A stretch of DNA of 64,000 nucleotides from Paenarthrobacter sp. AR 02 (GTDB lineage Bacteria > Actinomycetota > Actinomycetes > Actinomycetales > Micrococcaceae). Location: positions 62,001-126,000 of the forward strand of contig NZ_JAJUKH010000013.1 of assembly GCF_021538675.1 (NCBI RefSeq), read 5' to 3'. This document shows positions 36,924 through 48,038 of this stretch, one piece after another; the first letter of the stretch is position 1; each line of letters begins with the position of its first letter. Position numbers and translations under genes: made by a program. The notes beneath the pieces are model-generated. The model had not been told where the DNA came from. It saw nothing but the letters and a program-made list of their open reading frames with translations, and ran no database searches.

Positions 36924-37790
36924 ATGAAAAAGCAGAATGTTGCTGTGCTTGTCGGGGCTGCGGTAATGGCTTTGACGTCCTCGCTTGGAGGAGCTGCCAT
37001 GGCGTCAGAGCCGACGCCGCAACCAGCGTCCGCCGAGGTCCAGCCCGTGTCCCACACCGTGGATAAGTCCCAGACGTCCGGCTCCGCCGCGTCCCCGTTG
37101 GCCGACCGTTATTCCATCGCCGCGCCCACCAAGAATGGGGGTGCCTCTACGGATTCAGTCATCGGCGCTGACGGCCGGGTCCAGATCACCAACACCACGG
37201 CAGCACCCAACCGCTCCATCGTGCAGATTGAATTCAACGGCGGTTACATCTGTTCCGGTTCGCTCATCTCCGACGACACCGTGCTGACCGCCGGGCACTG
37301 TGTCCACACGGGCGGCACGGGTTCCACAGCTGATTACTCCTGGGGGGTCAAAGTAGCGCCGGGTCGGAATGGGTCGAGCAACCCTTACGGTACCTGCGGT
37401 GCTACCCAACTCCTCACGGACCAGCGCTGGATCGACTCGGCCAACACCAACGCCGACTGGGGCGTCATTAAACTCGACTGCACCATTGGCAACACCACCG
37501 GGTGGCTCAATTACACCGGTACGACGGCCAGCCTGAACGGAACCACCGCAACAGTGCGCGGCTACCCGGGCGACAAGGCATTTGGAACCATGTGGTCCAT
37601 GACGGGCACCATCGACAGCTCCGCAACCGAAAAGGTCTACTACAAGATGGACACCTACGGCGGCCAGAGTGGAGCACCTGTATACAACAGCTCCAACACC
37701 ATCGTTGCCATCCACACCAACGGTGGCAGCACCAACTCCGGTACCCGAATCACGCCCACCCTGGCTAACTATCTGACCTCGGTGAAGTAG
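36924..37790 (+). CDS. Secreted trypsin-fold serine protease (V8/glutamyl-endopeptidase type)
   Basis: A 288-residue secreted protease. A Sec signal peptide spans about 1-27 (KKQN, then VAVLVGAAVMALTSSLGGAA), followed by a Ser/Pro-rich propeptide to about 85. The mature domain has catalytic His125 (LTAGHC), Asp178 (NADWGVIKLD) and Ser249 (YGGQSGAPVY). The I-C-S-G-S-L-I and G-Y-P-G-D segments resemble the S1B group containing staphylococcal V8 protease, so cleavage after acidic residues is possible but not shown. ATG 36924 has GAAAGG upstream. It is an independent unit between pheT's terminator and the convergent nitrilase gene. Confidence 0.88.
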   Translation: MKKQNVAVLVGAAVMALTSSLGGAAMASEPTPQPASAEVQPVSHTVDKSQTSGSAASPLADRYSIAAPTKNGGASTDSVIGADGRVQITNTTAAPNRSIVQIEFNGGYICSGSLISDDTVLTAGHCVHTGGTGSTADYSWGVKVAPGRNGSSNPYGTCGATQLLTDQRWIDSANTNADWGVIKLDCTIGNTTGWLNYTGTTASLNGTTATVRGYPGDKAFGTMWSMTGTIDSSATEKVYYKMDTYGGQSGAPVYNSSNTIVAIHTNGGSTNSGTRITPTLANYLTSVK

Positions 37791-37793
37791 GCG

Positions 37794-38780
37794 CTACAGG
37801 ATCTCGACTGGCCGGTCTGAGAAGCGCGCGGCTCGGGCGTCGAGCTCATTGCCCTGTGGTTGGCTGAGGGAGGCGTAGAGTTCCGGCCGGCGGCCCCGTA
37901 TCCACCGCCGGCCGGTTGAGAGAGGCACCAGGCCGAGGTCCAGCTCGGCCGTAACGATTGCTTCGCCTGCACTCCAGGTTTCTGCGATGATCGCCCCATA
38001 GGGGTCGATGATCATGGCGTTACCCGTGCGGATCTCGTCGTAGTCAGGGCCGACGCCGTTGCTGAAGATGATGAAAAGGCCGTTGTCGTGGGCGCGGGAA
38101 GGCAACCAGCGCATGAGCCACCCGCGCCCGTGGGGTCCACGGAAGGCCGCTTCAATGGCGGCAGGATCTGCTGCACGGTTTTCCCACAAGGTGCTGGGGA
38201 TGGGCTTCATTCCCCGGGGACTCCGGGAGTTGGTGCCACCGGTTTGATGAGGGGCCAGCAGCACTGTCGCGCCCAGGAGTGCTGTCGCCCGGACGTTTTC
38301 GACCAGGTTGTTGTCCCAGCAGATCAGGATTCCGGCTTTGACGCCCCAAGGGGTGTCAAAGACCGTGAACCGGGATCCGCTGTCGATCGCCTCGTGTTCA
38401 AAGGCGTGGATCTTCCGGTGGGTGTGCCGTGCTCCGTCGGGGAGGCATACCGTGTAGGAGTTGTAGAGTCTTCCGTCGCTGTCTGCCTCGAGGTATCCGA
38501 CGCCGATGCCTACGCCCAGATCCCGGGCGAGTTTCTGGACGGCGAGGATGCTGGGGCCGCCCTCCGTCTCGGCTAGTTGATGCAAGCGTTGGGGCGTGTG
38601 TCGCCGGAGGTGCCAGTAGCCGAGCAAGCACATTTCCGGGAACACGACCAGTTGCGAACCATCCATGGCTGCAGCGGTGGCGAGCCGGTGAATGGTCTCG
38701 AGGTTGAGGTCCGGACGGTCCTGGATTGCTTCGAACTGGACTGCCGAGGCGCGAAGTATGGTCTGTGGATTATCGGGCAT
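37794..38780 (-). CDS. Carbon-nitrogen hydrolase (nitrilase superfamily)
   Basis: A 328-residue nitrilase-fold hydrolase. The catalytic triad is Glu49 (VVFPEMCLLGY), Lys123 (THRKIHAFE) and Cys154 (GILICWDNN). This superfamily hydrolyses C-N bonds of amides, carbamoyl compounds or nitriles; the insertion IEAAFRGPHGRGWLMRWLPS makes the substrate hard to guess. ATG 38780 has AAGGAG about 4 nt upstream, better than the further in-frame ATG at 38825. The divergent LysR gene is its probable regulator. Confidence 0.87.
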   Translation of the reverse strand: MPDNPQTILRASAVQFEAIQDRPDLNLETIHRLATAAAMDGSQLVVFPEMCLLGYWHLRRHTPQRLHQLAETEGGPSILAVQKLARDLGVGIGVGYLEADSDGRLYNSYTVCLPDGARHTHRKIHAFEHEAIDSGSRFTVFDTPWGVKAGILICWDNNLVENVRATALLGATVLLAPHQTGGTNSRSPRGMKPIPSTLWENRAADPAAIEAAFRGPHGRGWLMRWLPSRAHDNGLFIIFSNGVGPDYDEIRTGNAMIIDPYGAIIAETWSAGEAIVTAELDLGLVPLSTGRRWIRGRRPELYASLSQPQGNELDARAARFSDRPVEIL

Positions 38781-38854
38781 GGGTTCTCCTTGGGTTTGTC
38801 TCTCCCATGCTTCTTGCGATGACACATTCTGTCTAATGAAAGTTTTGGCCTAAT

Positions 38855-38873
38855 CCATTCTGTTTTGGAATGG
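38855..38873. promoter_or_regulatory. Candidate LysR operator between nitrilase and lysR genes
   Basis: CCATTC-N7-GAATGG is an exact inverted repeat (38855-38860 and 38868-38873) that contains the T-N11-A LysR recognition form. It sits in the 162-nt divergent promoter region, about 75 nt from each start codon. Confidence 0.6.
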
Positions 38874-38942
38874 AATTGTTGGGTGTCTGCGTGCCGCACC
38901 GCAGTATGTGAACGGAACTTGTCCTGTCGATAGTGTTATGAG

Positions 38943-39824
38943 ATGGAACTACGCCTTTTGCGGTCGTTTATCGCGGTTGCCGTGAACCAGAACTTCGGGG
39001 CTGCTGCCAAGGCGCTGTCCACAACCCAACCCGCCCTGACCAAGCAGATCCAGGTCCTGGAACGGCAGGCGGGAACCACGCTGTTCACCCGGGGGCGCCA
39101 CGGTGCAGCGCTGACGTCTGCCGGCGAGGCGTTGCTGGTCGACGCGGTCGACCTGGTGCGCAGGGCGGATGCCTTGGCCCGGCGCATGGAGCGGGTAGCA
39201 GCGGGGGCTGAGGGTATTCTCAACGTGGGATTCGGGATGTCGACGATCGATGTAGCGCCCCAGTCTGTCGCGGCTTTCCGTGCGCGGCACCCCGGAATCG
39301 ACATCAAGCTCGAAGACATGTCCTCCTCCCGGCAGTTCGACGCACTCCGTGACGGCACGCTCAGCGTGGGGTTTGTTCGCATGCCTGCTCCGCAGGACAT
39401 TGCCGCCCGGGTGATTCGGCGGGACCATCTGGCACTCGCCATCCCTGCCGGTGAGCCTGTTCCCGGGACCGGTCGAAAGGGTCTGCGGGCTTGGCTCCAG
39501 GACCAGGCCTTGGTACGCCTCGTCCCCGCCCGCGGGCCGGGATTGGCCGCTCAAACAAGCGAGTTGTTTATGGATTTGGGGTGCAGTCCCACCACGGTGT
39601 ACGAAACGTCCGACCTGCTCACGGTCGTGGCCCTCGTAGCCGCCGGAGCGGGCCCTGCTGTGGTCCCCGCCAGCGCCTCGGCCATCATCCCCGCCGGCGT
39701 GCAGTTGGTAAAGGTCGATCTGGAGTCCGCGAGCTGGGACATTGGCATTGCCTGGCTTCGCGGGAGCACCAACCCGTTGCTTCCCTTGTTTGTGGAATCA
39801 ATCAAGGTCGTGGAAAAGGCATGA
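38943..39824 (+). CDS. LysR-family transcriptional regulator
   Basis: A 293-residue LysR protein. The winged helix is at 1-60 (ELRLLRSFIAVAVNQNFGAA, then AKALSTTQPALTKQIQVLER), followed by a linker helix and a two-lobed effector domain. ATG 38943 follows TAGTGT (38931-38936) by 6 nt, a leaderless start. By the usual divergent arrangement it should control the nitrilase gene. Its stop overlaps the phosphopantetheinyl transferase start by 4 nt, so the regulator and that enzyme are coupled, which is unusual. Confidence 0.9.
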   Translation: MELRLLRSFIAVAVNQNFGAAAKALSTTQPALTKQIQVLERQAGTTLFTRGRHGAALTSAGEALLVDAVDLVRRADALARRMERVAAGAEGILNVGFGMSTIDVAPQSVAAFRARHPGIDIKLEDMSSSRQFDALRDGTLSVGFVRMPAPQDIAARVIRRDHLALAIPAGEPVPGTGRKGLRAWLQDQALVRLVPARGPGLAAQTSELFMDLGCSPTTVYETSDLLTVVALVAAGAGPAVVPASASAIIPAGVQLVKVDLESASWDIGIAWLRGSTNPLLPLFVESIKVVEKA

Positions 39825-40471
39825 TCGACGACCTTTTGCTTGAGGTGCACCGGCTCGATGACATGCTGGCTTCTGCTGGGCACCCACCGGACCTGGGACA
39901 ACCGGCAAAGCGTCGGGCCTCCAGGTTTGCCAGCGCCAAGGACCGGGACGAATTCGTTGCGGCCCGGATTTCGCTGCAGCTGTTCGCTGCAACGCTCCTC
40001 AACGTGGAACCCCAGCAGCTCGTGGCGAACTATCACTGCCCGCAGTGCGGGCAAGGCCAGGACCACGGCCGTCCCGGGTTCCTGCTCGACGGCGGCCCCG
40101 CACCTCTCGCGCTCAGCGCGTCCCGGGCGTCGGGCTGGCTACTACTGGCCGGCGTCGCCCATGCTCCCGAAGAACTACGGTTGGGAGTGGATCTTGAATC
40201 GACTGGCACAGCAACCTTCGAAGGCTTCGACGACGTCGCGCTGACCGCAACCGAGAAACGCTTACTGTCCACCATCCCGGATCAGGAGCGAGATAGTCAG
40301 CGCGCGCGGCTGTGGGCGCGCAAAGAGGCTTGGCTAAAGATGACCGGGGAAGGCCTGCGGCACAACCCGGCAGAGTTGGATGTGCTGGAGCGCCGCGGTG
40401 TGCAGGACCTGGACATTGTCGGCGGCCGGGCGCTGCCGGACGGACTGGTGGCCGCCTTGGCGATCGGCTAA
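39821..40471 (+). CDS. 4'-phosphopantetheinyl transferase (Sfp type)
   Basis: A 216-residue enzyme that attaches the phosphopantetheine arm of CoA to a carrier-protein serine. The Mg/CoA motif is RLGVDLE near 122-128, the second is LWARKEAWLKMTGEGL near 165, and YHCPQCGQGQDHGRP is the cysteine/histidine segment typical of actinobacterial members. ATG 39821 overlaps the lysR stop. The most evident client is the carrier domain of the Pls-type synthetase encoded 1.3 kb away, on the opposite strand. Its 3' end overlaps the M1 peptidase gene by 4 nt. Confidence 0.88.
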   Translation: MIDDLLLEVHRLDDMLASAGHPPDLGQPAKRRASRFASAKDRDEFVAARISLQLFAATLLNVEPQQLVANYHCPQCGQGQDHGRPGFLLDGGPAPLALSASRASGWLLLAGVAHAPEELRLGVDLESTGTATFEGFDDVALTATEKRLLSTIPDQERDSQRARLWARKEAWLKMTGEGLRHNPAELDVLERRGVQDLDIVGGRALPDGLVAALAIG

Positions 40472-41811
40472 CGCGGTGACGGCAGCGCGGGAAGTGCTGC
40501 CTCGTACAGCCACGGACGGAGAACGGCAGCGGCATCCAATCCCGGAATGAATGCGTTCGCGGCTACGATGAAGGCTTCCGTGGACACTGACCCGTGCCGG
40601 TTCTTGGCTGTCCAATGATGGAGGAAACCGAAGAACGCCTCGTCGCCGGCCGCCATTCGTATGGCGTGAACCGCCAAGGCCCCACGTTTGTAGACCCGGT
40701 CATCGAACATCAGCTCCGGGCCGGGGTCGCCAACCAGCAGGTCCTGCGGCCCGGCGTCGAGCCTCTTCCACGCGGCCGTAGCCCGCGCTGCGACAGTCAT
40801 GGTCCCGGATTCCTCGGACCACAACCACTCGGCGTAACAAGCGAAGCCTTCGTGCAGCCAGATATCTTTCCAGCTGTTGACGGTCAGGGAGTTCCCGAAC
40901 CACTGGTGGGAAAGTTCGTGGGCGATCAGCCGCTGGGATTCCCAGGCGTCGCGCATATGGTTGCGACCGAAAATGGAGACCGTTTGGGCCTCCAAGGGGA
41001 TTTCCAGCTCGTCTTCGGTGACCACGGACGTGTAATCGCTGAACGGGTACGGTCCGAAGCAATCCTCGAAAGTCCGCATCATGTCCGGCTGGCGTTCCAG
41101 ACCCCGCAAGGCGTCGGTCGCCATTTCGGGGGTAACGGCAACGAACTGGGGCACCCGGTGGTGGGTATCGTCGGCCTGCAAGGGCACCTTGGTGTAGCGG
41201 CCGATCTGCACGGTGGCCAGGTACGTCGCCATCGGCTCGGACTGCTCGTAGACCCAGGTTTCCCTGCTGGACTTCCGGGAGTGTGATACGAGCCGCCCAT
41301 TGCATACCGGACGGTAGTTGTCATCGGTGGTCACCGAGATGAGGAAGCTCGACTTGTAGCGGGGGTGGTCATTGCAAGGGAACCAGGACGCTGCGCCGTT
41401 CGGCTGGCCGGCCACCAGTACGCCGTCGTTCAATTCCTCCCAGCCAACATCTCCCCACAATCCGCGGCGGGGTTGCGGATTGCCGTCGTAGCGGATCTCC
41501 AGTGAGAACTGTTGGCCGGGCTTGAGCGCGGACGGGGGAGCCAGGACCAGGTGCTGGGCCCTGTGGCTGAATTTCTGGAGCTTCTTGCCATCCAGCTGGA
41601 CCTTGGTGGCCCGCAATCCCACCAGGTCCAGGACTATCTGCGCTGTCTGTTCCAACGCCGTGCACCGCAGGACCGCCTTGCCGATCAGCTTGTTGCTGCC
41701 CAGCCTGACGTCGAGGTCCAACTCATACCGGTCCACACGGTAGCTGGTGCTGCCGTGGTCCAGGGTGTAGGGGTCGGCTTCGGGCATGGGGGTGGTGATG
41801 GGTGCGGTCAT
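40468..41811 (-). CDS. M1-family zinc metallopeptidase
   Basis: A 447-residue gluzincin. The zinc site is HELSHQWFGN near 296-305 with the third ligand Glu in WLHEGFACYAEWL. The usual exopeptidase GAMEN motif is replaced by LEIPLEAQT, so classical N-terminal amine binding is in doubt. No signal peptide is evident and the ERAP-like C-terminal domain of full-length PepN is missing, as in many short actinobacterial members. It begins 12 nt after the stop of the Pls-type synthetase gene, so both are probably co-transcribed. Confidence 0.9.
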   Translation of the reverse strand: MTAPITTPMPEADPYTLDHGSTSYRVDRYELDLDVRLGSNKLIGKAVLRCTALEQTAQIVLDLVGLRATKVQLDGKKLQKFSHRAQHLVLAPPSALKPGQQFSLEIRYDGNPQPRRGLWGDVGWEELNDGVLVAGQPNGAASWFPCNDHPRYKSSFLISVTTDDNYRPVCNGRLVSHSRKSSRETWVYEQSEPMATYLATVQIGRYTKVPLQADDTHHRVPQFVAVTPEMATDALRGLERQPDMMRTFEDCFGPYPFSDYTSVVTEDELEIPLEAQTVSIFGRNHMRDAWESQRLIAHELSHQWFGNSLTVNSWKDIWLHEGFACYAEWLWSEESGTMTVAARATAAWKRLDAGPQDLLVGDPGPELMFDDRVYKRGALAVHAIRMAAGDEAFFGFLHHWTAKNRHGSVSTEAFIVAANAFIPGLDAAAVLRPWLYEAALPALPSPR

Positions 41812-41823
41812 GATCTGCCCAAT

Positions 41824-44800
41824 CTACTTGAGACGGGGCGCTTGTGCAGACGGACCCACCCACGGGCTCACCGGGTTGCCCATCCAGTACGTCCCTGCAG
41901 GGACAGTTTCGCCACGCATGACCAGCGACGCCGGGCCCACCGTTCCGCCGTCACCGATGCTGGCCGCGGGGAGGATGACGCCGTGCGGACCCATGGTGGC
42001 CCCGTTGCCCAGCGTCACGGTATCCAGGCTCATGACGCGGTCGTGGAACAGGTGTGTCTGGACCACGCAGCCGCGGTTGACGGTGGAGTTCTCGCCAAGT
42101 GTCACGAGGTCGGCTTCGGGGAGCCAGTAGCTTTCACACCAGGTACCGCGGCCGATCCTGGCGCCGAGCCCGCGCAGCCACCACACCAGGGCGGGCGTGC
42201 CCGCAGCGGACCTGGCGAACCACGGCGCACTGACCATTTCGATAAACGTATCCACAACCTCGTTGCGCCAGATAAACGAGCTCCAGAGCGGATGTTCGCC
42301 AGCGCGGATAGTGCCCACGAGGACCCACTTGGCGACGATGGCGCTGAGTGCTGCCACGCCTCCGGCTGCCAACATCACGACGCCGCCGAGGATCGCCGCG
42401 ATCCAGTAGCCCCATCCCCGGGCCAGCCAATCGAGGACCAGCATGACCCCGACGGCGATGGCAACAGTCAGGATGACAGGAACCAAACGGCACAATTCCC
42501 ACAGTGCGCGGGCGATTTTGAGCTTGGGGGGCGGCTGGAATGTCCGTGTCTGGTCCGCGTCGACGGCTGTGCGGCGCGACCTGACCGGGGGACTGCCCAG
42601 CCACGACGTGCCCGACTTCGCCTTGGCCGGGGTGGCCGACAGGACCGCTACCAGGGAGTTCTTGGGCACATTGCGCCCGGCCGCCGTCATCCCGGAGTTA
42701 CCAAGGAATGACCGTTTTCCGATCTTGGCCGGGGCGATTTTCATCCAGCCACCGCCGAGTTCGTAGGATGCCACCATGGTGTCGTCAGCCAGGAACGCGC
42801 CGTCGCCGATGGTCGTCATCCTGGGCACCAGCAGCACTGTGGAGGCTTCCACGTTCTTGCCCACCTTGGCTCCGAGCAAGCGCAGCCAAACAGGCGTGAA
42901 CAGGCTTGCATAGACCGGGAAGAGCAGGTCGCGGGCCATGTCCAGCAGGCGTTCCGTGGCCCACACCTGCCAGCCAATCCGGCTACGGACACGGAAATAC
43001 CCTTCCTTAAGACCGAGGCCAAGGAGCCGGGCAACAATGAGGATGAGCACCAGGTTTCCGAAGAACCACGTCAACGCCGCCAGGGGCAGGGCCATGGCTA
43101 TCTGGGGGAACGCGCTCTCCAATGAATCGTGTCCTTGGATGAACGCCATAAAAAGCATCGCAGCAGCGAAAGCGGAGATGTACGGTATCAGGGCCAGAAG
43201 CGCAGAAGCGCCGGCAAAAGCGGTGAACCACAGCCGGTCCACAGCGGAAGGACGGGCGGGATACTCAGGCCAGTCGTGTTTTGCCTTGCCGCGTCGTTCG
43301 GCTGGGGATCCAGCCACGAAGTGCCCGGCCTTCACTTTGCCCAGGACCGCGGATCCGGCGTCTACGTGTGCGCCTGCACCAATGGTGGCACCGGGCATGA
43401 GGGTGCTTCGCGCACCGACCACGGCACCGGCTCCCACGTGTATCTGGCCGATATGGACCGAGTCGCCGTCCACCCACCAGCCGGAGAGATCGACTTCCGG
43501 CTCGATGTTGGCACCATTGCCCAATGACAGCAGACCGGTGACAGGCGGCAGGGAATGCAGGTGCACATCCCGGCCGATCCTGGCACCGAGGGCGCGCGCG
43601 TAGTAGGGCACGAACGGGGCGCTGGCGAGGCCGATGGCCCCGGAGAGGTCTTGTATTTGTTCGGCGAGCCACAAGCGAAGGTGGGTTTTGCCGGACCTGG
43701 GGTAGGTGCCAGGCTCGATCTTGCCGAGCAGCACGCGTGCCGCTATTACCGAAATGGTCATACGGCCCAGCGGGCTGACGAAGACCAGCCAGGATGCCGC
43801 GATCCACCACCAGGACACCACAGGAGCTGCGGCGAATCCGGCAAAGTCTGCCAGTAACCTGTTCGCGGCCATCAGGTAGGTGAGCCAACGCATTCCCACC
43901 AGGATGTGAAGGGGCACGCCCATGAGGACCTGGAAGATCTGCGACTTCAAGGCTGTGGGACGCACGGTGCGCTCGACAGGCGGACCTGCCGCACCGCCGT
44001 CGGGCAGTGATTGCCGGGCGGCATCGATCAGGGCTCCGACACGCGGGGTCGCGTAGATGTCAGCGACAGTGATGGTGGGGTACCGGACCCGGAGGGCAGA
44101 GACGAGCTGGGCTGCGGCCAAGGACCCGCCGCCGTAGGCGAAGAAATCCGCGTCGAGGGAGCTCACGGGACTGCCCAGCACCGACTCCCACTGGTCCACC
44201 ACCCAACGGGCGTCGTCGGGCAGGTTCAGGGGCGCGTTGTTGGCCTCAGCAGCGCTGGTTCCCGCCAGCGGCCAGGGGAGGGCATGCCGGTCCACCTTTC
44301 CGCTGGTCTTGGTGGGCAGCGAATCCACCACGGTGAGCAGGGGGATCAATGCTGCCGGAAGGCTTTCGCCCAGCAGGCGGCGGGCCTGCTCCAGGTTTAG
44401 CCCGTGGCCGTCAACGGGGGCGAGATAGCCCACCAGGATCTGGTTGCCGGCAGCAGTGGTCTGAACTGCGGCGGCAGCGCCGGCAACTCCCGGGAGTGCC
44501 TGCAGCGCCGCGTCCACCTCGCCCAGTTCGATGCGCCGTCCACCCAGCTTGACCTGTTCGTCCGCGCGACCCATGAAAATCAGGCCCTCCGGTTCGAAGC
44601 GGACGAGGTCCCCGGAACGGTAGGCACGGTCCCAAGCCAGCGTGGCCATGGGTGCATACTTCTCGGCATCCTTGGCGGGATCGAGATAGCGGGCCAGCCC
44701 GACGCCGCCGATGATCAGTTCACCGATCCCGCCTTCCGCGACCGGGACACCATCAGAATCGACGACGGCGAGGTCCCAGCCGTCCAACGGCAGCCCGATC

Positions 44801-45780
44801 CGAACCGGGCCGGGTCGGCCCAACGGTGCGGCGCAGGCGACGACGGTGGCCTCGGTGGGTCCGTAAGTGTTCCAGACTTCGCGGCCATCGACGGCGAGCC
44901 GTTCGGCCAGCTCCGGCGGGCATGCCTCGCCGCCGAAGATGAGGAGGCGGACGTTTTCGAGGGACTCTGTCGGCCACAACGCAGCAAGGGTGGGCACCGT
45001 GGAAACCACGGTGATGCCGTGGTTGATCAGCCAGGGACCCAGGTCCATGCCGGTCCGCACCAACGCCCGCGGAGCCGGGACGAGGCAGGCACCGTGGCGC
45101 CAGGCGAGCCACATCTCTTCGCAGGAAGCATCGAAGGCTACCGACAGGCCCGCCAGCACTCTGTCCTGGGGACCGATGGGATCGGCTTGGAGGAAAATCC
45201 GTGCTTCAGCGTCAACGAAGGCGGCGGAAGATCGGTGTTTAACTGCAACACCCTTGGGCGTACCAGTGGATCCCGAGGTGAAGATGATCCAGGAGTCGTC
45301 ATCCAGCCCCGGTTTTGAAGGTTCCGATACAGGCTCGCGTGCGGCACCGGCGGCTCGGATATCAAGTCCCGCCCCTACCACCGCGGCAACCTTGGCTTCC
45401 CCGAACACGAGGCGTGCCCGTTCCTCGGGATCGTCGGCATCAACCGGAACGTACGCGGCGCCGGCCATGAGGATTCCCAGGATGGCGATATACAACTCGT
45501 TGGTGCCGGAAGGGATGCGGATGCCGAGCTTGTCACCACGACCCAGGCCCGCAGCGTTCAATCGTGCGGCGAAGGCCCTGACCGCCCTGAGGAGTTCGGT
45601 GTAGCTGAGTGATTTTTGCCCGTCATCCAGAGCCGAAGCCTCGGGGAAGGACGCTGCGGTCTCTTCCAGAATGTCCACCAGCGTGCGCTCGGCTGGTGCA
45701 GCGGTGCCGCCCGGCAACTGGGGGCGGTAGGTGGTCAGGGCGGGTGCCGGCCCGGCCCCCACGGGATGTTCTGTGCTCAC
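41824..45780 (-). CDS. Pls/PosA-type membrane non-ribosomal peptide synthetase
   Basis: A 1318-residue synthetase with the epsilon-poly-L-lysine synthetase layout. The adenylation domain is at about 35-500 (TSGSTGTPKG near 166; FDASCEEMW near 216; YGPTEAT; GKVDR). A carrier domain follows with the phosphopantetheine Ser in YGGGSLAAAQ near 551. The rest has about six transmembrane helices in pairs around three left-handed-helix acyltransferase-like domains (about 745-830, 980-1055, 1200-1300). There is no condensation or thioesterase domain. Pls enzymes polymerise one amino acid iteratively in the membrane. GTG 45780 is preferred; TTG 45810 would add 10 residues. Confidence 0.9.
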   Translation of the reverse strand: MSTEHPVGAGPAPALTTYRPQLPGGTAAPAERTLVDILEETAASFPEASALDDGQKSLSYTELLRAVRAFAARLNAAGLGRGDKLGIRIPSGTNELYIAILGILMAGAAYVPVDADDPEERARLVFGEAKVAAVVGAGLDIRAAGAAREPVSEPSKPGLDDDSWIIFTSGSTGTPKGVAVKHRSSAAFVDAEARIFLQADPIGPQDRVLAGLSVAFDASCEEMWLAWRHGACLVPAPRALVRTGMDLGPWLINHGITVVSTVPTLAALWPTESLENVRLLIFGGEACPPELAERLAVDGREVWNTYGPTEATVVACAAPLGRPGPVRIGLPLDGWDLAVVDSDGVPVAEGGIGELIIGGVGLARYLDPAKDAEKYAPMATLAWDRAYRSGDLVRFEPEGLIFMGRADEQVKLGGRRIELGEVDAALQALPGVAGAAAAVQTTAAGNQILVGYLAPVDGHGLNLEQARRLLGESLPAALIPLLTVVDSLPTKTSGKVDRHALPWPLAGTSAAEANNAPLNLPDDARWVVDQWESVLGSPVSSLDADFFAYGGGSLAAAQLVSALRVRYPTITVADIYATPRVGALIDAARQSLPDGGAAGPPVERTVRPTALKSQIFQVLMGVPLHILVGMRWLTYLMAANRLLADFAGFAAAPVVSWWWIAASWLVFVSPLGRMTISVIAARVLLGKIEPGTYPRSGKTHLRLWLAEQIQDLSGAIGLASAPFVPYYARALGARIGRDVHLHSLPPVTGLLSLGNGANIEPEVDLSGWWVDGDSVHIGQIHVGAGAVVGARSTLMPGATIGAGAHVDAGSAVLGKVKAGHFVAGSPAERRGKAKHDWPEYPARPSAVDRLWFTAFAGASALLALIPYISAFAAAMLFMAFIQGHDSLESAFPQIAMALPLAALTWFFGNLVLILIVARLLGLGLKEGYFRVRSRIGWQVWATERLLDMARDLLFPVYASLFTPVWLRLLGAKVGKNVEASTVLLVPRMTTIGDGAFLADDTMVASYELGGGWMKIAPAKIGKRSFLGNSGMTAAGRNVPKNSLVAVLSATPAKAKSGTSWLGSPPVRSRRTAVDADQTRTFQPPPKLKIARALWELCRLVPVILTVAIAVGVMLVLDWLARGWGYWIAAILGGVVMLAAGGVAALSAIVAKWVLVGTIRAGEHPLWSSFIWRNEVVDTFIEMVSAPWFARSAAGTPALVWWLRGLGARIGRGTWCESYWLPEADLVTLGENSTVNRGCVVQTHLFHDRVMSLDTVTLGNGATMGPHGVILPAASIGDGGTVGPASLVMRGETVPAGTYWMGNPVSPWVGPSAQAPRLK

Positions 45781-45898
45781 AGGCCTAGCTTTGCGCAGAA
45801 AGGTGAACAAAAGGTGTCTGTCGTTTCCTGTTCGTCACATTTTCTTGCACCACTGTTTGCCTGTAGGTCGCCAGTTGTTCGGGAGCCGGGCTTTGGAG

Positions 45899-46864
45899 TT
45901 ACGGCAGAAGCAGGACTTTGCCGGTGGTCCGGCGGCCTTCCAGGTCACGGTGGGCCTGGGCAGCTTCGGCCAAGGGGTAGGTTGCGCCGACCCTGACCGA
46001 GAGCGTTCCGCTGGCGGCGGCGTCGAAAATCTCGGCCGAGCGCCACCGGCGCTCGTGTGTATTCTGCACGAAGTGGGCCATGGTTGGCCTGGTCAAGGTC
46101 AAGGAGCCTCCGGCGTTCAGGCGCTGGGGATCGAATGGCGGCACCGGCCCGGACGCGGCACCAAAGAGCACCATGGCTCCCCGGATGCGCAGGCTCTTGA
46201 GGGATTCGTCAAAGGTGTCTTTACCGACGCCGTCGTACACCACGTTGACGCCTTCGCCGTCGGTCAGTTCACGGACCTTGTGGGCGAAACCGTCGTAGCG
46301 GAGGACCTCGTCAGCTCCGGCCAGCCTGGACAGCTCGGCCTTTTCGTCGGAGGAGACGGTGGTAAGCACGCGTGCCCCGCGGGCCTTCAACAGCTGGGTC
46401 AGCAGGAGGCCAACGCCTCCGGCCCCCGCGTGCAGCAGGACGGTGTGTCCCGGCTCCACCCGGAAGGAGGAGTTCATCAGGTAATGCGCTGTGATCCCTT
46501 GCAGCGGAAGGGCAGCTGCAGTGTGGTCGTTGACGCCGTCCGGAACCGGAAGCGCTTTCGCAGCATCCACGAGAGTGTAGTCGGCGTAGGTGCGGGACCC
46601 TTCAGCCGTGGCAATACGGTCGCCAACGGCAATGTCCTCCACGCCCTCACCCACCGCCTCCACCGTGCCGGCGGCTTCTGCGCCGGGGGTGAAGGGGTAG
46701 TCAACCTTGTAGGTTCCGTTGCGCTGGTAGGTTTCGATGAAGTTCACCCCGGCAGCTGCGACCTTGATCAGCAACTGGCCGGGACCGGGGGCTGGTGCTT
46801 CCACAGAGGCGTATTCGAGGACTTCAGGTCCTCCGGGCTGCTTTGCGACAATGGCGTGCGTCAT
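45899..46864 (-). CDS. NADPH:quinone oxidoreductase (zinc-independent MDR family)
   Basis: A 321-residue medium-chain reductase. VAAAGVNFIETYQRNGTY and TPGAEAAGTVEAVGEGV mark the QOR1/zeta-crystallin type without zinc ligands. The nucleotide fold is HAGAGGVGLLLTQLLKARGA. Such enzymes reduce quinones or enones with NADPH. ATG 46864 has GGAG 5 nt upstream. It lies 88 nt upstream of the synthetase start on the same strand; a functional link is not evident. Confidence 0.93.
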   Translation of the reverse strand: MTHAIVAKQPGGPEVLEYASVEAPAPGPGQLLIKVAAAGVNFIETYQRNGTYKVDYPFTPGAEAAGTVEAVGEGVEDIAVGDRIATAEGSRTYADYTLVDAAKALPVPDGVNDHTAAALPLQGITAHYLMNSSFRVEPGHTVLLHAGAGGVGLLLTQLLKARGARVLTTVSSDEKAELSRLAGADEVLRYDGFAHKVRELTDGEGVNVVYDGVGKDTFDESLKSLRIRGAMVLFGAASGPVPPFDPQRLNAGGSLTLTRPTMAHFVQNTHERRWRSAEIFDAAASGTLSVRVGATYPLAEAAQAHRDLEGRRTTGKVLLLP

Positions 46865-46949
46865 GGTGGCTCCTCACTCCGGGGCGGTCCTTCCGGTGCC
46901 CGGTTTCAGAATCCATCCTAGGGAGGTTGGGGCCTTCCATGTCGAACGG

Positions 46950-48038
46950 CTAGCGGCGTCCGTGCGTCGAAGCCACGGGACAGTCGAAGCCGCGGCCTGC
47001 TGCGAGGCCCACCTCGTTGAGGTAGCTGACCACGATCCCGTACGACTGCATGAGCGTGGTTTCGGTGTAGGGAATCGAGTGCTTGGCGCAGAATTCCTTC
47101 ACGATGCCGGCGGCCTTGTGAAGGTGCGGACGTGCCATGTCCGGGAACAAGTGGTGCTCTACCTGCCGGTTGAGTCCGCCCAAGAGGAAGTCCATGAAGC
47201 GACCGCCGGAGATGTTGCGGGAGGTCAGGATCTGGCGGTTAAGGAAGTCCACGCGGCTGTCCTTGGGAAGCACGGGCATGCCCTTATGGTTGGGGGCGAA
47301 GGATGCGCCCATGTAGAAGCCGTAAACCATGATCTGGACGCCGAGGAAAGCGAACGCCATTCCGATGGGCAGGAAGGTGAAAGCCAGCACCGGCAACGCC
47401 GTCAGGCGTGCCACGAGGATGGGGGTTTCCACCCAGCGGTGCCGGACCTTCTGCTTGCCGAAGACAAAGCGGATGGAATCGAACTGCAGGCTCAGGCCAA
47501 GCAAGGTCAACAGCGGGAAGAAGAACCAGCCCTGCCGGCGCGTGAGGAATGCCAGGCGGCCCTTGCGCTCGGCCGCGGCGTCCTCGTAGAACACCAATGC
47601 GTTGTTCCGGATGTCGGGGTCCTTGGAAATGACGTTGGGGTGATTGTGGTGGGCGCCGTGTTTCTGTTCCCACCATGAGTAGCTGATGCCCGCAACGCCT
47701 GTGGCCAGGAGACGCGCCGACCAATCGTTGGCGCGGCGGGAGGCAAAGATCTGCTTGTGTCCGGCTTCGTGGGCCAGGAAGCTCAACTGCGTGCAGAGAA
47801 TGCCGACGGCCGCGGCAATGAGGAGCTGGTACCAGGATTCGCCAATGAGGGCGAAGCCGAGCCAGGTGCCGGCCATGAGCAGTATCAGGGCTACGAAAAC
47901 CCAGATATAGAAGCCGCTGCGGCGCTCGAGGAGTCCTGCGGACTTGACGCTCTTGAGGAGCTCTGAGTAGCTCTGAACGACGGGATTTGGCTGAATTGCG
48001 CGTGCTTTGGGGCGCTCAGCGGTGGACGTGGGTGCCAT
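46950..48038 (-). CDS. Membrane fatty-acid desaturase
   Basis: A 362-residue di-iron desaturase. The three histidine boxes are HEAGHKQIF, HGAHHNHPN and QVEHHLFPDM; the Q in the last box is typical of front-end or acyl-CoA desaturases (mycobacterial DesA3-like) rather than delta-9 plant types. About four hydrophobic helices are seen. There is no N-terminal cytochrome b5 domain, so electrons must come from a separate reductase, and none is adjacent. The ATG is at 48038. It is divergent from argC. Confidence 0.92.
   Translation of the reverse strand: MAPTSTAERPKARAIQPNPVVQSYSELLKSVKSAGLLERRSGFYIWVFVALILLMAGTWLGFALIGESWYQLLIAAAVGILCTQLSFLAHEAGHKQIFASRRANDWSARLLATGVAGISYSWWEQKHGAHHNHPNVISKDPDIRNNALVFYEDAAAERKGRLAFLTRRQGWFFFPLLTLLGLSLQFDSIRFVFGKQKVRHRWVETPILVARLTALPVLAFTFLPIGMAFAFLGVQIMVYGFYMGASFAPNHKGMPVLPKDSRVDFLNRQILTSRNISGGRFMDFLLGGLNRQVEHHLFPDMARPHLHKAAGIVKEFCAKHSIPYTETTLMQSYGIVVSYLNEVGLAAGRGFDCPVASTHGRR

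Follow-up and report, generated by a model that had tools for sequence, protein, structure and literature searches.

The window analysed here is a stretch of 64,000 nucleotides from Paenarthrobacter sp. AR 02 (contig NZ_JAJUKH010000013.1, positions 62,001 to 126,000 of the forward strand), and all coordinates given below are those of the window. On its minus strand it carries pls (41824..45780), a gene that very probably encodes a Pls-type membrane non-ribosomal peptide synthetase (NRPS) polymerising L-lysine through the epsilon-amino group, with epsilon-poly-L-lysine as the predicted product. The basis observed for this reading is the architecture of the protein, the identity of its substrate pocket with that of Streptomyces albulus Pls, the order of the genes around it and their co-occurrence among related genomes.

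The synthetase and its substrate

The pls frame is intact, running for 1318 residues from a GTG at 45780 to a single terminal stop, and residues are numbered here from that GTG. An alternative in-frame TTG lies ten codons upstream at 45810 and, because the intervening stretch is kept in three close Paenarthrobacter relatives, the true start may be either codon. When the C-terminal half of the protein was compared with NCBIfam TIGR02353 (Pls/PosA family non-ribosomal peptide synthetase) it scored 702.9 bits against a curated cut-off of 423.1, the match spanning profile positions 2-695 of 695. Pfam gave AMP-binding at residues 38-364, PP-binding at 525-587 and Hexapep at 780-812, and listed no condensation or thioesterase family at E <= 0.001. 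The adenylation domain (PF00501 together with the match to 7wew described below) occupies approximately residues 33-505 (44266..45684, minus strand) and the carrier, or thiolation, domain (PF00550) residues 525-587 (44020..44208, minus strand), the Ser553 of the latter being conserved in 86 of 86 aligned sequences. The product of pls is probably an ordinary copy of a Pls/PosA-family synthetase. A preliminary description had divided the 1318 residues into an adenylation domain, a single carrier domain and six hydrophobic segments interleaved with three hexapeptide-like domains, condensation and thioesterase domains being absent, and this was borne out by Pfam, hydropathy and a structural model; its likening of the layout to that of Pls agrees with the TIGR02353 score and with the pocket.

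A search of the PDB found the best solved relative of the adenylation domain to be that of S. albulus Pls (7wew, E 1.7e-197 over residues 11-506), to which it is 65.5% identical over 478 aligned columns, as against 38.2% for the adenylation domain of the Acinetobacter baumannii PosA homolog (L144). The ten pocket residues, picked at what we take to be the positions of the Stachelhaus scheme, read DAESIGTVVK in both the window protein and S. albulus Pls. The same code was found in 84 of the 86 aligned sequences, the exceptions being the PosA homolog (DMEHNGTVSK), which differs from the window protein at four positions, and locus L045 (DFECLSVVTK). Two residues of the ornithine pocket of PosA, Met218 and Ser313 in PosA numbering, are replaced in the window protein, where A218 and V314 are aligned with them. 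Since the pocket is identical to that of S. albulus Pls, L-lysine is the likely substrate. An unrooted FastTree phylogeny of 36 adenylation domains placed the window protein and S. albulus Pls on one side of a branch with support of 1.000 and the PosA homolog, L045, L147 and two separate adenylation domains on the other.

The membrane domain and a candidate active site

Hydropathy analysis identified six segments in the C-terminal half of the protein, which coincide with helices of the model and fall into three pairs: residues 615-636 and 649-685 (43726..43938), 847-883 and 893-929 (42994..43242), and 1089-1124 and 1119-1161, which overlap (42298..42516), all on the minus strand. It also marked residues 952-970 (1.41) and, inside the adenylation domain, 93-116 (1.78, above the first two of the six); judged by their position, these two are taken not to span the membrane. 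For residues 598-1318 an AlphaFold2 model based on 34 sequences had a mean pLDDT of 88.3 and a pTM of 0.89, the other four models ranging from 73.1 to 81.1. It consists of long helices and then short, regularly spaced strands in three stretches, here termed C1 (approximately residues 732-837, 43270..43587), C2 (970-1061, 42598..42873) and C3 (1207-1305, 41866..42162; all minus strand), which are predicted to be left-handed beta-helices, the handedness being a supposition from the model. The six transmembrane helices and three beta-helix domains that serve as a membership feature are therefore predicted for this protein.

Evidence for the three stretches varies. C1 aligns to hexapeptide acetyltransferases, with a best VIA-align Z of 7.8 (3.9 A over 148 residues), a value to be read with the tool's own guidance that a Z below 8 can result from a common arrangement. 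The Foldseek and VIA-align matches were middling and mostly covered model residues 73-441, so that C2 and C3 were barely tested by fold. Sequence profiles searched against the PDB matched hexapeptide-type proteins with C1 (E 5.5e-07) and C3 (E 7.3e-07), whereas C2 is indicated by the strands of the model and by weak PDB matches (E 0.4 and 0.82). The three acyltransferase-like domains anticipated in the preliminary description are accordingly present in the AlphaFold2 model, with the same limit on C2 and C3. PDB sequence searches returned these hexapeptide-type proteins and no solved structure of a Pls/PosA membrane domain. A three-beta-helix model has been published for PosA (PMC10522769), and the present model agrees with it rather than adding a discovery.

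The key observation on the membrane domain is that H1243 is its sole invariant histidine among the 86 aligned sequences, the PosA homolog and L045 included. Q1241 and D1247, close by, are likewise invariant (86/86), all three lie within C3, and the motif they form, Q-x-H-x3-D, is present in five further proteins (L145-L149). H742 of C1 is kept in 84 of the 86. A substantial caveat is that the membrane domain has 36 further invariant positions, and conservation alone is therefore no proof of catalysis. C3 most likely holds the condensing site, being the best candidate by this conservation, with H1243 as the single candidate catalytic histidine.

Genes beside pls

Immediately downstream of pls, with its start codon 12 nucleotides after the pls stop, lies a gene for an M1 metallopeptidase of 447 residues (40468..41811, minus strand; PF01433 and PF17900), which is PldII-like by family and position and carries a zinc site of the form HELSH...E. 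S. albulus PldII is, we assume, itself an M1 enzyme. The zinc-site residues H298, E299, H302 and E321 (HExxH-x18-E) are conserved throughout the 83 sequences aligned, as is E274, presumably the glutamate of a GxMEN-like motif, and the predicted model of the peptidase has a pLDDT of 91.5. Related loci were gathered by a scan with the pattern ASCEEMW, in which two pocket positions (A218 and E221) are fixed, and the best 80 (L061-L140) were kept; all 80 hold a peptidase match, which in 75 starts at most 400 nucleotides downstream of pls. An M1 peptidase is also annotated beside Pls in Streptomyces sp. NBC_01454, where it is 40% identical to the window peptidase, and in Kitasatospora sp. NBC_00039. 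In two genomes with a Pls-family match (G016 and G092) the peptidase match was in two pieces, a possible frameshift or assembly error. By analogy with PldII the window peptidase may protect the cell from the polymer.

Convergent with the peptidase gene, and overlapping its end by 4 nucleotides, is a 4'-phosphopantetheinyl transferase gene (39821..40471, plus strand; PF01648, scanned with 8 extra N-terminal residues). Because a search of the genome gave two PF01648 matches, the window transferase and one in a 118-residue frame of AcpS size, and two PF00550 carriers, that of Pls and one in a 100-residue frame of acyl-carrier size, the window transferase is the obvious candidate for activating Pls. 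Its linkage is looser than that of the peptidase. Of the best 80 loci 28 contain a transferase match at any position, and in 25 of the 80 it lies no more than 1 kb beyond the peptidase; of the 21 loci holding both the peptidase and pheT it lay between them in 16 and not in five (L072, L083, L085, L086 and L121); in L072 a mere 177 nucleotides separate the two genes. A universal three-gene unit is consequently not supported. Against its counterparts in L061, L062 and L079 the window transferase reaches only 59-66% identity, as opposed to 87-97% for the other genes compared there, which may reflect fast evolution or replacement.

Between pheT and the transferase gene (37794-39824) lie a nitrilase-like gene and a LysR gene, the stop of the latter overlapping the transferase start. 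Neither had a match in L061, L062 or L079, and a similar pair occurs about 4 kb from pls in a Kribbella locus (L102). Near pls are also argC and argJ, names which we assign by sequence. The nearest named relatives are Paenarthrobacter and, judged by its neighbours pheT and argC-argJ, the location of pls is chromosomal, which fits the earlier assignment to a Micrococcaceae-type chromosome.

Putting these elements together suggests a route from monomer to polymer. The adenylation domain, with its pocket identical to that of S. albulus Pls, would activate L-lysine as the adenylate, and the neighbouring transferase, to judge from genome content and co-occurrence, would load the arm onto Ser553 of the carrier. 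The lysyl thioester would then pass to the membrane domain, in which the three beta-helix stretches probably form one unit and C3, through Q1241, H1243 and D1247, most likely joins the epsilon-amine to the carboxyl of the next lysine. Chains would cross the membrane through the six-helix part, and the M1 peptidase, if reports on S. albulus PldII hold here, would hydrolyse the polymer for self-protection.

Distribution and history of the site

Genome surveys used the TIGR02353 cut-off, which admits any class of the Pls/PosA family, so that the lysine class is not told apart in the counts. Over this cut-off were 123 of 150 genomes of the genus (27 without), 163 of 295 genomes of the family Micrococcaceae and 14 of 296 in a phylum-wide draw, the gene being much less frequent outside the family in that draw. 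Pls homologs in Arthrobacter, Glutamicibacter and Micrococcus have already been reported (PMC8117764), a NAPAA region is listed in a Paenarthrobacter genome paper (PMC11719660) and an Antarctic survey describes NAPAA clusters as common to its Micrococcaceae strains (PMC11078813). The earlier suggestion that such products are rarely described outside streptomycete-type producers, and with it any rarity in Micrococcaceae, is rejected by these genus and family counts and by the homologs in print (PMC8117764).

Both neighbouring genes follow pls closely. All but one of the 123 Pls-positive genomes had at least two PF01648 matches, the exception (G027, 68% complete) having one, whereas 25 of the 27 Pls-negative genomes had one match, G118 (63% complete) none and G099 two. 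The peptidase (E <= 1e-30) was matched in 123/123 Pls-positive genomes, with a weakest best E of 6.1e-97, and in 1/27 others; that one match, in G142, is partial (43%) and looks like a paralog, and six of the 26 genomes without a peptidase match were placed by elimination. Fisher tests on the association with Pls gave 7.7e-27 for the transferase and 2.3e-30 for the peptidase (the entries being 123/0 and 0/27, with G142 counted as lacking it), but these tests ignore relatedness and the figures show only that the association is strong.

The region from pheT to argC was mapped by tblastn in 20 of the 27 Pls-negative genomes. In all 20 there was no match (E 1e-8, any coverage) to pls, the peptidase or the transferase between pheT and the quinone oxidoreductase gene (qor), the gap between these two genes being about 80-170 nucleotides in 17 genomes and 1.5-1.65 kb in three, and in all 20 argC-argJ remains beside the site. 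A link of pls to arginine or ornithine supply is for this last reason not favoured. A quick-search tree of argC, argJ and qor was made with 20 Pls-negative rows and 26 Pls-positive rows, the latter being those of the 81 Pls-positive sources (80 loci and the window) that hold all three genes. Presence of Pls changes six times on it, at least five of the changes being forced by well-supported branches. Two of its long branches, those of L085 and L089, join, and the tree is unable to tell gain from loss. What favours loss over gain is that qor and argC-argJ are likewise the flanking genes of pls in loci from Kocuria, Citricoccus, Galactobacter, Glutamicibacter, Sinomonas and Psychromicrobium; wherever the genes are contiguous, a single deletion would explain each joint loss. 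Recent horizontal acquisition by this genome is not favoured, since base composition does not set the gene apart from the rest of the window and many relatives have pls flanked by qor and argC-argJ as well.

From these patterns a broader proposal can be drawn, to which we give slightly less than even chances. It holds that in Arthrobacter-type Micrococcaceae the synthetase, a self-protecting peptidase and a dedicated transferase make up a cassette of three genes with a fixed place in the chromosome, inherited vertically and lost whole several times, and at the same time that the Q-x-H-x3-D of C3 is the polymerising site of the whole Pls/PosA family. Our caution over it stems from the transferase being off-site in 5/21 of the loci with peptidase and pheT.

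Alternative explanations

Several points weigh against a polylysine synthetase at this locus. The uniform pocket code among relatives is partly due to selection, because the ASCEEMW pattern fixes two of the ten positions and the best 80 loci were kept, whereas the agreement with S. albulus was not selected. PosA and the remaining classes sit on a long branch of the adenylation-domain tree that joins it next to the S. albulus/L141 pair (0.977 support), and the tree therefore shows the window protein no nearer to S. albulus than to that branch point. On the peptidase side, no signal peptide was seen by eye on the window protein and PldII is reported outside the membrane (PMC9223678). A review states that inactivation of Pld and PldII altered neither production nor polymer length (PMC8506220). 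For the Pls of the Rhodococcus opacus plasmid pROB01 (L143) an M1 peptidase was neither annotated in the 8-kb flanks nor matched by tblastn in a 20-kb stretch; this Pls belongs to the lysine-pocket class and is carried on a plasmid. Lastly, Corynebacterium variabile itself is reported to give no detectable polymer, its Pls being unseen by proteomics (PMC8117764).

A synthetase of the same family might instead polymerise L-ornithine, 2,4-diaminobutyrate or L-beta-lysine, as the family member PosA makes delta-poly-L-ornithine (PMC10522769) and two genes of the arginine pathway, argC and argJ, are close to pls. That is unlikely here, given that all ten pocket residues match S. albulus Pls, with four differences from the PosA homolog, that lysine aminomutase and diaminobutyrate aminotransferase are absent among the eight proteins scanned at 36924-48038, and that argC-argJ stays in 20/20 mapped genomes without pls. 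More improbable still is a degenerate NRPS fragment, or an enzyme transferring a single lysine to a lipid or cell-wall acceptor: the hexapeptide stretches are indeed acyltransferase-like, but the family match is full-length, the carrier serine and the C3 motif are intact and an M1 peptidase is linked. A different matter is whether a genuine polylysine synthetase is silent or minor and no polymer is secreted naturally, which is compatible with L-lysine polymerisation by the enzyme and denies only its use. The C. variabile enzyme is silent in its own host (PMC8117764), so that a silent gene is plausible here too, and in 27/150 genomes of the genus no family member passes the cut-off; the intact frame and the keeping of synthetase and peptidase together in 123/150 genomes speak for use, and we regard silence as a serious possibility that falls somewhat short of being the expected outcome. 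Among the titles and abstract openings returned by the literature search, and in passages of PMC11719660, PMC12025171, PMC11078813 and PMC8506220, no polylysine measurement from any Micrococcaceae strain was noticed. L-lysine polymerisation by the pls product remains the preferred reading.

The window gene thereby adds one probable polylysine synthetase to a distribution already published, and what is added here, as far as comparison of sequences can suggest it, is the joint presence or absence of genes at one site and a single invariant histidine. A natural comparison for the role of polylysine is offered by relatives that either have or lack the genes at this one site, and H1243 gives one candidate catalytic histidine, open to mutational test, in a family for which sequence search found no membrane-domain structure in the PDB. 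If vertical inheritance with repeated whole loss is true, polylysine would be a trait of long standing, though an optional one, in common soil bacteria.

Other Pls/PosA classes in Micrococcaceae

Pls/PosA membrane-domain proteins of other kinds were seen in three genomes (G088 twice, G232 and G319), at L145:4272-7379, L146:4115-7222, L148:3886-7242 and L149:312-3437. Pfam found no adenylation domain in the L146, L148 and L149 proteins, which carry three or four tandem carrier domains, and the start of the L145 protein is similar. In L148 and L149 a separate adenylation-carrier (A-T) protein with the pocket DIWQSTADDK adjoins. Other neighbours are a pyridoxal phosphate (PLP)-dependent enzyme and a TauD dioxygenase in L148 and an ornithine cyclodeaminase-family enzyme in L149; these enzymes recall, to our mind, SbnA/SbnB and hence a supply of 2,3-diaminopropionate. 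The four proteins possibly represent a split, multi-carrier synthetase. A second class with the order A-T-membrane and the pocket DFECLSVVTK is formed by L147:4427-8710, a protein of 1428 residues, and L045, which is 28.8% identical to the window protein.

Comparison with known systems

The window protein passes the curated cut-off of TIGR02353, a family name that leaves the substrate unfixed, and it can be compared more closely with three members. The A. baumannii PosA homolog has the same overall architecture and keeps the Q-x-H-x3-D of C3, but is 32% identical to the window protein, has the pocket DMEHNGTVSK and, unlike the window, has no M1 peptidase annotated or matched by tblastn within 5 kb. 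C. variabile Pls, as described in print, comes from a non-streptomycete actinobacterium and shares the domain order and the peptidase neighbour; the pls-peptidase pair is described there and the synthetase made epsilon-polylysine in Streptomyces coelicolor (PMC8117764), so its product is proven by heterologous expression, whereas that of the window gene is predicted from sequence. In S. albulus pldII is adjacent to pls, is called translationally coupled and is regarded as serving self-protection (PMC9223678). The window resembles this system in the adenylation-domain pocket and in a directly adjacent peptidase gene, the likeness to Pls being drawn from comparison of the adenylation domain and that to PldII from family and position; in the window a phosphopantetheinyl transferase gene lies nearby as well.

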